NCBI RefSeq assembly: GCF_003025005.1
Contig: NZ_PVSS01000005.1
Coordinates: 62,001 to 126,000, forward strand
DNA length: 64,000 nt
DNA from: Brumimicrobium mesophilum
GTDB lineage: Bacteria > Bacteroidota > Bacteroidia > Flavobacteriales_D > Crocinitomicaceae
Direction of reading: 5' to 3'
Shown here: in pieces, positions 11,484 to 23,144 of the stretch
Numbering within the stretch: position 1 is the first letter of the stretch
How the letters are laid out: every line of letters starts with the position of its first letter
The notes under the pieces: generated by a model
Seen by the model: the letters and a program-made list of their open reading frames with translations, nothing else
Told to the model about the DNA's origin: nothing
The model's database searches: none
Made by a program: the position numbers and the translations under genes

Positions 11484-12514
11484 AAAACTTGAAATCACTT
11501 TTTGATAACGTTAACCCTGTCCTTTCTTTAACTTGTTGTTGAACTTTGTCGAAAGTACCAATTTCTACTTCTCCCTGTCTATAATTTGATTGATAAATAA
11601 AATTCCCCGATTCATCCTTTCCTATAATACTAATTGCATGTCCGTCTCCATTCCCATCAGACCAAAAGCCAATTGCTCCTACTTTCTCGTTATTTAACAG
11701 ACGATAATCATCTTTCAATATGTTTTTCAAAAACTGTCCCTGTCATTATACCTTTCAATCCTAGAGCGTCAGCAAAGCAATTAGAATAAAAATCCAAAGA
11801 TTCTTCAGAAAGCAAAGTCACAACATCTGAAAAAGACGTCATATATTGAGAATCGTATCCTAAAGATGCTAAAGGAAGTGAAAAAGAGTGTTTATTTCCT
11901 TTAGAAGATTTATATTCCAAATCTAAAACTATACCCAATTCCTCTGGATCATCTTTTCCACCACCTCCTATAAAATCTGTTGAAACTGGATATGAAGTAT
12001 GATTTATTTCTCTTGTTTTATTACCTGGATCTAATACAGTTCTATTTTCTTTATGAGTTTTATGAATGTAAATATTCTTTGATTCTGGGCTCATCTTCGC
12101 ATATCTCTCGTATCCAACCCCAGTAACTCTATATAACTTGTTAGTGAAGTTTTCATTTTCGTTTAAAAATTTAGGTAAATTGATATAATGAAAATTTTTA
12201 CACTCAGGAGAGAACTCAGCTTGAGCATAAAGCATTGCGTTATAGGCCAACTTTGGCTCTTCTTTCGCTGGCCCTCCAATCAATCCAGTTGGGTCAACAA
12301 AATAAATCGGATTATTATTGAAAGCAACATAAGGACTATACCATGGCTGAATCTTCATCAACGGATCTAACGATTTCCATCTCCCTAACCTCGGGTCATA
12401 CTGTCTAAACTGGGTAGTATAAGAATTCCCATCCCCTGATACTTCCACGTCTGCCTACATTCCGTTGAACAAGTGACGGTAAGAACCCAAATCATCATAA
12501 ATTATTCTTACCCT
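11470..12514 (-). pseudogene. Rhs-family toxin C-terminus, broken by in-frame stop and frameshift
   Basis: The frame starts without its own ATG at about 12514 with RVRIIYDDLGSYRHLFNGM, meets TAG (12455-12457, where homologues have Glu), then gives the Rhs core signature RQYDPRLGRWKSLDPLM and NNNPIYFVDPTGLIGG (about 12400-12270). The tip continues to FYSNCFADALG, then runs out of frame near two 5-base homopolymers (11723-11727 and 11729-11733). The next frame gives DGNGDGHAISIIG and YQSNYRQGEVEIG. Read together, Cys, His and a later polar residue suggest a papain-like fold toxin. The N-terminal Rhs shell is missing, so this copy is very probably inactive or an orphan recombination donor. Confidence 0.75.
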
Positions 12515-13436
12515 CGTAGTAATCATATTTTCTTAACTCTATTACCTTTATAAATTCAGTTGAGATATATTGAAACAAAACATCATCAACTAACATTGTT
12601 TCTTCATCATAGAGAACTTGGTATTGAGAAACATACGTTCCGTTTTTAAACTCTTCCTTCTTTAATAGATTTCCTTTTCTATCGTAACCAAAAACAAATG
12701 ACCTATCTTGGAATCCATAAATATTTGAACGCACAGTTATACTGTCTATTTCACTTTTATGATTATAGTGGAATTGTGTAATTTTAGAACCTGGCATTCT
12801 TTCGAATTTTTCAACTTCTTCCGTTACCAATCCTTTCCTGTTAAATTGAGTAAAAATGTTTTTATATGGTAATCCTTCACTATTATAAACTATTCTTTTC
12901 TGTCCATTTGCAAAATCCACATAAGATGACTTTTCAGCAGAGACCGTGAATTTTTCATTCAATTCAAAATCTTCATTGTTATTCACATTAGTGGAAAGAC
13001 TCCTTCGGTACTCTTCATTTACAACCCTTCCTTTTTCGTCATAATCATATATATAAGCATAATTTCCAAATGCATCAAATAATCTAATTGCGGTAATATT
13101 CCCTATGGAATCATAGTCATAAAAAGTTACTAAAGTATCAGCTTCTTTAGTTAACTCCACACTTTCAAGCATCTGTACCAACTGACCTTCTTTATTAAAA
13201 TTATAGGTTCTAAAATATTCAGTTTCTCTAGGTTTATCGCCTAACTTATAATGAATTTCTGTGCCTGAAATAGATTTTATACCTCTCTCACGAATCACCT
13301 CCTCATTGAAAAAAGGTTTATCTGTGAAAAACTCGCCGTGTGTGTTATCAATTAACTGAGCAGATGTTGTGAGGGGGTGAAACCCTATTAAAACAGTAGA
13401 TAAAAACAATGCTAGTACTATCGAAGGAATTTTCAT
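12495..13436 (-). CDS. Secreted protein with YD/Rhs-like repeats
   Basis: 313 aa with an N-terminal signal peptide (KIPSIVLALFLSTVLIGF ... TSAQ). The body has repeated beta units typical of YD-repeat proteins: YDYDSIGNITAIRLFD, YDYDEKGRVVNEEY and FGYDRKGNLLKKEEF. There is no DPxGxxx core or toxin domain in frame. The last about six residues (EGKNNL) are encoded by DNA that in the next frame is Rhs sequence (RIIYDDLG), so the 3' end of this gene appears to be a recombination junction. Function unknown; it may be a cell-surface protein or the carrier stump of the toxin locus. Confidence 0.7.
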   Translation of the reverse strand: MKIPSIVLALFLSTVLIGFHPLTTSAQLIDNTHGEFFTDKPFFNEEVIRERGIKSISGTEIHYKLGDKPRETEYFRTYNFNKEGQLVQMLESVELTKEADTLVTFYDYDSIGNITAIRLFDAFGNYAYIYDYDEKGRVVNEEYRRSLSTNVNNNEDFELNEKFTVSAEKSSYVDFANGQKRIVYNSEGLPYKNIFTQFNRKGLVTEEVEKFERMPGSKITQFHYNHKSEIDSITVRSNIYGFQDRSFVFGYDRKGNLLKKEEFKNGTYVSQYQVLYDEETMLVDDVLFQYISTEFIKVIELRKYDYYEGKNNL

Positions 13437-20169: not shown

Positions 20170-21339
20170 TTATTCCGATTTAGTATTTGAATTCAAAGAT
20201 TTACCTTTAGCATCAGTTTTACGAGAAATACTCAACACAATACCCAAAGAAACACAACTCATTACCATCGCCGAACCACCCATTGCGAGAAAGGGCATAT
20301 TCTGACCTGTAACAGGCATTATTCCAGTACAAACAAACATATTAATCATTGCTTGAGATAATAGCAAAAGCCCTATCCCTACAGAAAGATAAGTTTCAAA
20401 TAAATTTTTAGAATTCAAGCCCACTTTTAAGATACGGTAGAACAAAATAAGGTACATGAAAATCAATAAAATCGCACTTATGAGTCCAAACTCTTCAACG
20501 AATGAGGAATAATAAAAATCGGCATAAGCTTCTGGAGTGTAATGTTTCAAATCACCATCACCTACTCCGACGCCTGTATAACCACCATTGTGAATTGCCA
20601 ACTTAGCATTGATGGCCTGCATATTTTCAACTGAAGCACCTTCTTCACCATAGGCTTTAAAAAATCGGTTAACCCATGTATCAAAACGAGGTAAAAGATT
20701 AGCAGCAGGCAGTGCAATATGAGTCAAAATGAGTCCTCCAGCCAAAACTGCACCACTCCCAATAACCGTAAATATTTTTGTCATAGGAAATTTCCCTACA
20801 AACAAAAGCAACAAACTCACCATAAAAATTATGGCAGAAGTAGAAAAATTATCCTTTGCGATCAATAAACAAATCAATAGAATTGGACCTACAATAGAGA
20901 GCAAACTGCTTTTCCAAGAGTCAAAACTATCTTGTTTTGTAACTAAGCGACGAGAAAGTAAAATAACCAAAGCCAGCCTCGCAAAATCTGAACTTTGGAA
21001 GGTAAGCCCAATAATAGGAACCCTTACCCAACGCGAAGCATCATTAACACGCACCCCAAAAAAGAAGGTGAAAATCAATAGTGCCACTGCAACAATAAAA
21101 ATAAATTTAGATAATTTCTCAAAGTATTTTGGATCCTGTCGATGAACCCAAAACATAGCTAAAAAACCAATAACAATATAAATCGTATGCTTAAACAAAT
21201 AGCTAAATGGCCTTCCCCCTTCTGTTTTAACCAAAATAGGCACAAAACTGTAGACACTAACCATCGACAACCCTAAAAATAGAATTGTGACGATCCAAAT
21301 TACTTTGTCTCCTTTTAGATATTTGAATATATTTTGCAC
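20170..21339 (-). CDS. ftsW: FtsW/RodA/SpoVE-family peptidoglycan polymerase
   Basis: SEDS glycosyltransferase that polymerises lipid II at the division site together with FtsI. 389 aa with about ten membrane segments and the family loop GYTGVGVGDGDLKHYTPEAY, then ADFYYSSFVEEFG (about 255-285) and TGQNMPFLAMGGSAM near the end. The start is GTG (21339). Position in the dcw cluster supports FtsW over RodA. An unknown 146-aa gene ends 10 bases upstream. Confidence 0.96.
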   Translation of the reverse strand: MQNIFKYLKGDKVIWIVTILFLGLSMVSVYSFVPILVKTEGGRPFSYLFKHTIYIVIGFLAMFWVHRQDPKYFEKLSKFIFIVAVALLIFTFFFGVRVNDASRWVRVPIIGLTFQSSDFARLALVILLSRRLVTKQDSFDSWKSSLLSIVGPILLICLLIAKDNFSTSAIIFMVSLLLLFVGKFPMTKIFTVIGSGAVLAGGLILTHIALPAANLLPRFDTWVNRFFKAYGEEGASVENMQAINAKLAIHNGGYTGVGVGDGDLKHYTPEAYADFYYSSFVEEFGLISAILLIFMYLILFYRILKVGLNSKNLFETYLSVGIGLLLLSQAMINMFVCTGIMPVTGQNMPFLAMGGSAMVMSCVSLGIVLSISRKTDAKGKSLNSNTKSE

Positions 21340-21349
21340 CTAGTAATAA

Positions 21350-21790
21350 TTAAACCTTAAGTTGTTTTTCAAAATGACTTCTCCATTCATTAGAGGAAGG
21401 AAGCGTACCTTCATGATAACACAGAACTAAATCATCTTGGTCCGATTCAAACAATTTCATAGCTGTTTTAATATTGTTCTCTAACCAAGTTTTTATTTCG
21501 ACATTTTCCATGGACTCAATTCCTTCATCGATCCAATCAAAAATCAAAAAATTATGTAGTTCTTTCTTTTCCCATATTTTATCTTCCAAATCTACTTCTT
21601 CAGAATTTGAAAAAAACCATATAGAAGGATGTTTTGTAATTAAAAGTTCATTTAATTCATTTGAAAGATTTATCTCTTTGTAATGAAAACAAGGTTTATT
21701 ACCGTACCACTTTTGCATGAAACGAAGTTTAAAATCCTCCATTGCATTCCCACGAGCTACCCTAATTAAATCTTCTGTCGAACTTTTCAT
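21350..21790 (-). CDS. Unknown 146-aa protein inside the dcw cluster
   Basis: A soluble, acidic protein of 146 aa between murD and ftsW, with 10 bases to each neighbour on the same strand. No signal peptide, membrane segment or familiar motif is visible. Patches such as EDFKLRFMQKWYGNKPCFHY, HPSIWFFSNSEE, FLIFDWIDEGIES and SNEWRSHFEKQL suggest a compact mixed alpha/beta fold with many aromatic residues. Composition resembles its neighbours, so it does not look newly acquired. A role in division or wall synthesis is suggested only by position. Confidence 0.8.
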   Translation of the reverse strand: MKSSTEDLIRVARGNAMEDFKLRFMQKWYGNKPCFHYKEINLSNELNELLITKHPSIWFFSNSEEVDLEDKIWEKKELHNFLIFDWIDEGIESMENVEIKTWLENNIKTAMKLFESDQDDLVLCYHEGTLPSSNEWRSHFEKQLKV

Positions 21791-21800
21791 CTAAAAAAAA

Positions 21801-23144
21801 TTAAAGTGAACGAACAGCGTTTTTAAATTGCTGACCACGGTCTTCATAGTTTTCAAACAAATCAAAACTAGCACAAGCTGGCGACAACAATACAGTTTCA
21901 TCCTTTTTAGCAAATTGATATCCAAAACCAACTGCTTCAACTGGAGATTGTGTTTCGATAATTGTATCCACTATTCCTGAAAATGCTTCAATAATTTTTG
22001 AATTATCTTTTCCAAGACATACAATTGCTTTTACTTTTTCTTGAACCAAAGGAATTAATTCTTCGTAGTCATTTCCCTTATCCACACCACCAACTATCCA
22101 AACTGTTGGGTTGTGCATACTTTCCAAGGCATACCAAGTAGAATTGATATTTGTTGCTTTTGAATCGTTGATAAATTCAATTCCATTTACTTTTGCTACA
22201 AATTCTAAACGGTGTTCTACGTTAGTGAAGTCAGCTAAACTTTCACGGATATTCTCCTTACGTAATTCAACTAATCTTCCAGAAATTCCGGCTACTAAAG
22301 AATTTTGAACGTTGTGCTTGCCTTTTAAGGCTAAATCATGAATCGACATAGTTAATATATTATTTATTGTTATTGTTTGATCTTCGTCTCTATAAAACCC
22401 TCCTTCAACAGTTTCATCCTTTAATGAAAAAGGAAGGGTTTGCGCATTAATCTTATGCGTTTTTAATTGTTTCTTAATCTCTTTATCATCAGCATTATAG
22501 ATAAAAACATCATTTGCTGTCTGATTTTGAATAATTCTCATTTTCGCTTTGCCATATTCTGTAATACTCTCATTATAGCGATCTAAATGATCTGGAGTAA
22601 TATTCAATAGAATTGCGATATCAGCCTTAAATTCGTACATGTCTTCCAATTGGAAAGAACTTAATTCGATTACATAATAATCTGACTCATCTTTTATTAC
22701 GCTTCTGGCCAAACTCACACCCACATTTCCAGCCATTTCAGATTTTAATCCCCCACCATTAAACACATGGTTAACCAAATATGTGGTTGTCGTTTTTCCG
22801 TTACTCCCAGTAATAGCAATTAACTTTGCTTTTGTGTATCTCGCTGCGAATTCAACATCACAAATTGGTCTTAAGCCCGCATCAAGAATCTCCTTTATTA
22901 ATTTACTACTGTTTGGAATTCCAGGACTTTTGATCACCTCATCCGCAGCCAAAACCTTAGACATTGTATGACCTCCCTCTTCCCAAGCAATGGAATTTTC
23001 ATTCAGCTCTGATTTAAATTTATCCTTGATTTTACCAGCATCACTAACGAATACATCATAGCCTTTAACTTGCGCCAATAACGCAGCTCCGACTCCACTT
23101 TCGCCAGCACCCAAAATCACGATATTTTGTTTATTCGTTTCCAC
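21801..23144 (-). CDS. murD: UDP-N-acetylmuramoyl-L-alanine--D-glutamate ligase
   Basis: Adds D-Glu to UDP-MurNAc-L-Ala in the cytoplasm. 447 aa with NIVILGAGESGVGAALLA at the N-terminus, the ATP loop AITGSNGKTTTTYLVNHV (about 115-132), LLNITPDHLDRY (about 185), NDSKATNINSTWYALE (about 325) and LLSPACASFDLFENYEDRG at the end, all typical. The start is GTG, directly after the mraY stop. Confidence 0.98.
   Translation of the reverse strand: METNKQNIVILGAGESGVGAALLAQVKGYDVFVSDAGKIKDKFKSELNENSIAWEEGGHTMSKVLAADEVIKSPGIPNSSKLIKEILDAGLRPICDVEFAARYTKAKLIAITGSNGKTTTTYLVNHVFNGGGLKSEMAGNVGVSLARSVIKDESDYYVIELSSFQLEDMYEFKADIAILLNITPDHLDRYNESITEYGKAKMRIIQNQTANDVFIYNADDKEIKKQLKTHKINAQTLPFSLKDETVEGGFYRDEDQTITINNILTMSIHDLALKGKHNVQNSLVAGISGRLVELRKENIRESLADFTNVEHRLEFVAKVNGIEFINDSKATNINSTWYALESMHNPTVWIVGGVDKGNDYEELIPLVQEKVKAIVCLGKDNSKIIEAFSGIVDTIIETQSPVEAVGFGYQFAKKDETVLLSPACASFDLFENYEDRGQQFKNAVRSL

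Follow-up and report, generated by a model that had tools for sequence, protein, structure and literature searches.

Gene X, a 146-codon gene between murD and ftsW in the dcw cluster of Brumimicrobium mesophilum, appears to encode a catalytically dead, orphaned copy of MurD domain 3 whose role would be to bind MurD or partners of that enzyme (probability about 0.7 for the account as a whole). The descent of the X family from this domain is very probable. A non-catalytic binding or regulatory role is somewhat favoured, and MurD or membrane-side partners are proposed only tentatively as its target. Few bacterial gene clusters have been studied as thoroughly as the dcw cluster. X occurs in 136 of 200 genomes sampled from its family, or approximately two thirds, and is also present in further families of its order, yet neither a name for it nor a description of such a gene was found in the open-licence literature, including the available text of PMC4929429 and PMC8871954.

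Gene X and the surrounding dcw cluster

The window, meaning the whole 64,000-nucleotide stretch of contig NZ_PVSS01000005.1 that was analysed, contains X on the minus strand with its neighbours (Table 1). An earlier note, made from the letters of the window, had described a 146-aa ORF separated by 10 bases from murD and by 10 bases from ftsW, as the ORF list and the spacing confirm. The packing of 0-10 bases that it gave for the other cluster genes is nearly right; the remaining gaps are -14 to 10 bases, with the exception of 29 bases between ftsA and ftsZ. Its description of the neighbours as classical dcw genes is supported for seven of them, with MurD, MraY, MurE, MurG, MurC, FtsA and FtsZ scoring above their own NCBIfam cut-offs. 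The others are less secure: FtsW and the cluster PBP have matches below cut-off only, ftsQ had no NCBIfam match in the cluster scan and, like mraZ, mraW and an ftsL-like gene, is named by position. MurD of the window is 91% identical to that of B. oceani, 90% to that of B. glaciale and 86% to that of B. aurantiacum.

Table 1. Coordinates of gene X and its neighbours in the window.
Feature	Position	Strand	Basis and remarks
Gene X	21350..21790	minus	ORF list; 146 aa, ATG start; very probably a free-standing, diverged descendant of MurD domain 3
murD, upstream neighbour and presumed parent	21801..23144	minus	TIGR01087 E 4e-118, above cut-off; PDB MurD matches
murD 3' part (last 160 codons and stop), segment homologous to the X family	21801..22283	minus	Order X vs MurD-C, hhalign probability 100, E 6.8e-49
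ftsW, downstream neighbour	20170..21339	minus	ftsW is best NCBIfam model, below cut-off (253.8 vs 337.5 bits)

As the earlier note had stated, no domain is recognised in the window protein: the NCBIfam search returned no match and the Pfam search nothing above chance (best E 0.075), with no Mur_ligase_C (PF02875) at E <= 10. Judged by its homologues in relatives and the pairwise dN/dS of Brumimicrobium copies (0.17-0.44), X is more than a chance ORF.

Homology of the X family to MurD domain 3

X is linked to MurD through successive hhalign profile-profile comparisons, each controlled with 100 column shuffles. No shuffle scored as high as the real alignment for genus X against family X (probability 96.8), family X against order X (99.0), family X against MurD-C (90.8) or order X against MurD-C (100). 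Direct comparison of genus X, which includes the window protein, with MurD-C gave a probability of 2.8 over eight columns (1/100 shuffles as high), and comparison with order X gave 1.7 (2/100 shuffles as high). Given that window X matches the X of G006 (E 4.4e-22), which leads in turn to the family, the order and MurD, its link to MurD is transitive, and its tie to the enzyme rests on this chain together with synteny. Genus and family X also have in common their slot, a similar length, an N-terminal helix with 'AR' and a P-x-x-W strand, the tryptophan of which is kept in 15/15 family and 7/8 genus copies.

Searches with partial profiles give a graded picture of the same chain. Profile A5, built without genus rows, recovered the X of G006 (E 2.8e-8) and that of G004 (E 0.008), both in the right place, and, with E values up to 10 admitted, missed window X together with five of the seven further genus copies; against PDB sequences, the best match of this family-X profile was MurD 4buc at an E of just 0.15. 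With profile A4, built without Crocinitomicaceae X rows, 10 of 60 family genomes yielded X frames at E <= 0.001, the best at 6.2e-23; its search of five genus genomes yielded none, although four of them have the gene. MurD frames are themselves among the weakest matches of the X profiles (G137 and G154 for A1; G026 and G229 for A3).

Order-level copies are plainly MurD-like, aligning across the whole of domain 3. The most similar, from G055, shares 43% identity with MurD of the window in a BLASTP alignment of 164 aa and carries the HRLE, INDSKAT and SPAC stretches of the domain. The NCBIfam murD model (TIGR01087) matched 19/19 order X, the first of them at profile positions 292-438 of 441, and 3/30 family and genus X (best 1.8e-11). 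Mur_ligase_C matched 16/19 order X at E <= 0.01, the same first member scoring 28.3 bits against a cut-off of 28.4, and a single one of the 30 family and genus copies (E 0.014); unlike these, window X matches no MurD model. Two tandem MurD-domain-3 ORFs, both matching MurD, lie between murD and ftsW at L150 (f2) and at L152, L155 and L159 (f4), and at L153 and L156 (f5) likeness to MurD in the second ORF is faint or cannot be recognised. X is thus not the unrelated newcomer that might have been supposed from the window, since the family very probably derives from the MurD C-terminal domain, though it is indeed both conserved and lineage-restricted.

In a 59-row tree, MurD proper is separated from every X except L089_X (support 99/100), and a single group (99/98) unites the second copies at L150, L152, L155 and L159. 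L089_X has a branch of 3.43 and an unsure position; it may have arisen independently as a copy, or be artefactual. The AU test does not reject one clade comprising every X (p-AU 0.335), which does not amount to proof of one origin. L153b, L156b, L167 and L169 were excluded from this tree and from the residue counts below.

Predicted structures

Structure prediction, one of the checks proposed in the earlier note, was informative for a family-level copy and uninformative for window X. The AlphaFold model of the G018 copy (pLDDT 89; 23 alignment rows, none of them MurD) has the predicted fold of the Mur ligase C-terminal domain: Foldseek ranks 1-27 all belong to the Mur-ligase superfamily (26 being FolC), two at E <= 0.001. 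VIA places MurD 4buc first (Z 13.1, rmsd 2.6 over 121 residues, chain residues 312-446) and MurD in seven of the first eight rows. For the model of window X (pLDDT 82), Foldseek gave no match at E <= 0.001 and listed no Mur ligase; nor did VIA list one, its best scores (Z 2.3) being to a 26S proteasome chain and MPN-domain proteins. The fold of window X may have drifted, or its model may be wrong. Read by eye rather than by computed superposition, the order of elements in this model seems to resemble domain 3 minus one strand and one helix.

Distribution and attachment to ftsW

With the window X sequence as query, homologues at E <= 0.01 were found in 9 of 59 relatives, namely 8 of 10 Brumimicrobium genomes (its own included) and G020, which is from a different genus. 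The two genus genomes without X are G003, with a murD-ftsW gap of 194 bases as in B. aurantiacum (L070), and G007, where X is absent from a gap of 28 bases; a search of the B. aurantiacum gap for an X remnant gave just 9-25 base matches at E 0.8 or more. At 19 loci of other Crocinitomicaceae genera, in which the gap was read directly, 12 hold an ORF, 133-159 aa long, for which tblastn gave no match to X at E <= 1e-3. Profile A1 (19 proteins) matched 137/200 family genomes at E <= 0.001, or 136 after removal of G137, where the match is MurD, and profile A3 (30 proteins) matched 116/299 order genomes, or 115 after removal of G229 for the same reason, some of the searched genomes in both cases having also contributed rows to the profiles. 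A3 used 11 of 29 loci, with L061, L062 and L068 left out and the others being repeats or near-copies; L027, a 133-aa ORF, was excluded from the alignments. In a phylum-wide draw, A4 gave MurD-size matches in 293/296 genomes; among the matches listed, all frames were at least 440 aa, and two matches occurred only in G396 and G567. One named contig, L089, carries an X-like ORF of unsure placement, and its FtsW falls outside the family grouping. Internal stops, among the matches listed, affect one row of the A1 family search and three of the A3 order search, and the length of X is 140-160 aa in 57 of 58 copies, those that are not truncated at a contig end.

A quick FtsW tree of 113 loci, 39 of which have X, requires 14 changes in the presence of the gene, at least nine of them forced by starred branches; this tree is unable to separate gain from loss. 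If X had a single origin, its patchy distribution is most simply explained by repeated loss. The earlier note had proposed checking whether the gene and its position are conserved, and both are, X occupying the same slot in many Crocinitomicaceae genera and in other families of the order. It had also posed absence from close relatives with identical clusters as a sign of chance insertion. Such absence does occur in G003 and G007, yet the family- and order-wide sharing of the slot argues for loss in these two genomes and not for a chance insertion in the window.

The position of X is tied more closely to ftsW than to murD. In 58 of 60 further family regions, X lies directly before ftsW with a gap of -4 to 27 bases, while in the remaining two (L243 and L244) the X match falls inside the murD-ftsW gap, further from ftsW. 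In 34 of these 58 regions, the stop of X runs into the start of ftsW by 1 or 4 bases, a count that is approximate because the ftsW start was placed by extrapolation from BLAST. Genomes of genus g13 have a break in the cluster between murD and X: in G021, murD is on a separate contig among other genes and X is the first gene before ftsW; in G063, murD is 6.4 kb from X, with six ORFs between (five on the opposite strand); and in G077, the distance is 9.0 kb with seven ORFs between (six on the opposite strand). X remains 3-5 bases from ftsW in all three, and in G259 it adjoins ftsW though two ORFs separate it from murD. Retention of X beside ftsW where the murD linkage is broken indicates that it is an independent gene whose place is tied to ftsW.

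Some murD-ftsW regions have other contents. In B. glaciale (L069:5800-6118), the X-ftsW gap is approximately 320 bases and consists largely of short GTTATCAAGTT-like repeats. L110, labelled Limnohabitans, has a 121-aa ORF between murD and ftsW (L110:5372-5737) that matches neither X nor MurD; its FtsW groups with Flavobacterium rows and the contig is probably misbinned. L085, labelled Saccharospirillaceae, is also probably misbinned, as its FtsW groups with Flavobacteriales rows.

Selection and erosion of the D-glutamate site

Nei-Gojobori dN/dS values, which are rough because dS is near saturation, are 0.020-0.067 for X of the G018 type (20/21 pairs with finite dS) and 0.17-0.44 for Brumimicrobium X (10 pairs from five copies). 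Those of MurD-C are 0.003-0.032, and for Brumimicrobium 0.018-0.041 (6/10 pairs with finite dS). Purifying selection on X thus looks strong in the G018-type genus and relaxed in Brumimicrobium, whose X lies towards the dispensable extreme of the family. Patchy presence and relaxed dN/dS in Brumimicrobium are compatible with a dispensable gene, and X cannot be essential throughout the clade.

MurD, an enzyme of approximately 440 aa, is described in the available text of PMC3527612 as having three domains that bind UMA, ATP and D-Glu, and T321, K348, S415 and F422 of the Escherichia coli protein as contacts of D-Glu or glutamate mimics. When these residue numbers were mapped by eye onto the PDB MurD matches, T321, K348 and S415 proved to be kept in 156/156 MurD locus rows, some of which represent one genome a second time. 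Order X retains much of the site (T321 in 14/19, S415 in 11/19, an aromatic at 422 in 17/19 and R425 in 17/19) and has lost the K348 lysine from its column in all 19 copies (15 loci), though a lysine lies no more than two columns from that place in L155b, L161 and L162. The alignment is unsure for family X, with T321 in 1/15 and K348 in 0/15, and for genus X, with T321 and F422 each in 0/8, S415 in 3/8 and K348 in 1/8. By the same unsure alignment, genus X has arginine at the R302 column in 8/8 and lysine at K319 in 4/8, residues that could be a retained part of a site. X is 146 aa long, belongs to a family homologous to domain 3 alone and does not have the D-Glu contact set; since it also has neither domains 1 and 2 nor the ATP site, it is not able to act as a MurD ligase.

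Proposed role and alternatives

The favoured account begins with a tandem partial duplication of murD, by which its last approximately 160 codons, encoding domain 3, would have been copied between murD and ftsW. This domain, which in MurD is taken to close over the active site and bind D-glutamate, would thereby have become a separate small protein. X would then act without catalysis as a 'third domain' in trans, binding MurD or an assembly of MurG, MraY and FtsW, and once bound it would either adjust precursor supply or tie MurD to the complex made with the ftsW and murG products; in Brumimicrobium, this role would have weakened. Domain 3 of MurD adopts distinct positions in the open and closed enzyme, as described in PMC3527612, and a detached copy could therefore imitate MurD's own or compete with it. 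MurG and MreB are presented in the available text of PMC4929429 as scaffolds for Mur ligases including MurD, with FtsW possibly belonging to the complex. The constant place of X beside ftsW, its frequent overlap with that gene and its retention after murD has split away favour the ftsW/murG side. The suggestion in the earlier note of a clade-specific divisome or wall factor holds to the extent that X is a conserved, clade-restricted cluster gene, whereas its role is one that we infer.

Two known systems are comparable. MurT is a multi-domain subunit that works with GatD, unlike X, which is a single lone domain. As proposed for X, MurT is a Mur-ligase relative put to another task, and its structure 7q8e ranks 48 in the VIA list of the G018 model (Z 10.3); MurT/GatD is the subject of PMC6085368. 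MigC, a COG0523 GTPase of Acinetobacter baumannii, is reported to bind MurD and inhibit it non-competitively (PMC12208494). It would thus be a precedent for a partner protein that binds and inhibits MurD, though it is an unrelated GTPase and not a MurD paralogue. Like the MurG/MreB scaffold and the movement of domain 3, MigC is an analogy and provides no evidence on X itself.

An alternative that deserves weight, though it is unlikely, is that X is a decaying remnant, a partial murD duplicate that survives by its operon position and is drifting to loss, chiefly in Brumimicrobium. This would suit the absence of X and of any detectable trace of it from the 194-base gap of B. aurantiacum, its absence from G007, its patchy presence on the FtsW tree and the elevated omega of Brumimicrobium X relative to MurD-C. 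Decay is difficult to reconcile with the low omega of G018-type X, the rarity of internal stops among the matches listed, the near-constant length and the retention of X as first gene before ftsW in G021 despite murD being elsewhere. It is improbable that X is a ligand sensor, one still able to bind D-glutamate, a Mur nucleotide or the product of MurD and to signal the level of precursor to FtsW or MurG: the T321, S415, 422 and R425 positions still kept in most order X and the nearby lysines of L155b, L161 and L162 are consistent with such a function, but K348 is missing from its column in every order copy, and family X, by its unsure alignment, keeps T321 in a single copy and K348 in none.

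Least probable of all is that unrelated orphans have entered one slot in each lineage, with likeness to MurD limited to the order- and family-level copies. Comparisons of genus X with MurD-C and order X are no better than their best shuffles, the window X model is unlike MurD, and the L110 gap demonstrates that an unrelated ORF can enter; against this, the genus-family link is significant in both directions tried, and slot, length, 'AR' helix and P-x-x-W strand are common to genus and family X. Descent from MurD domain 3 remains the preferred reading. A broader proposal, and one less likely than not, is that basal Flavobacteriales use a detached MurD domain 3 as a wall control protein, coupling D-Glu addition to the FtsW complex through binding of MurD (or MurG/FtsW) in trans, with tandem domains in two sampled families (f2 and f4).

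On this broader proposal, X would be a paralogue-derived regulator inside the division and cell wall cluster. A detached dead MurD domain would, if it controls MurD or ties it to FtsW, offer a native handle on an essential ligase. One gene slot here holds living intermediates in which an enzyme domain copy passes from plainly recognisable to unrecognisable, providing a test case for remote homology.

Other features of the window

Elsewhere in the window, an RHS-repeat-like ORF lies on the minus strand at 12495-13436 (region 11708-13436), its match to PF05593 (E 3e-4) being just below cut-off. It is followed by a 246-aa ORF, without a Pfam match, in which an RHS-core-like stretch can be discerned by eye.
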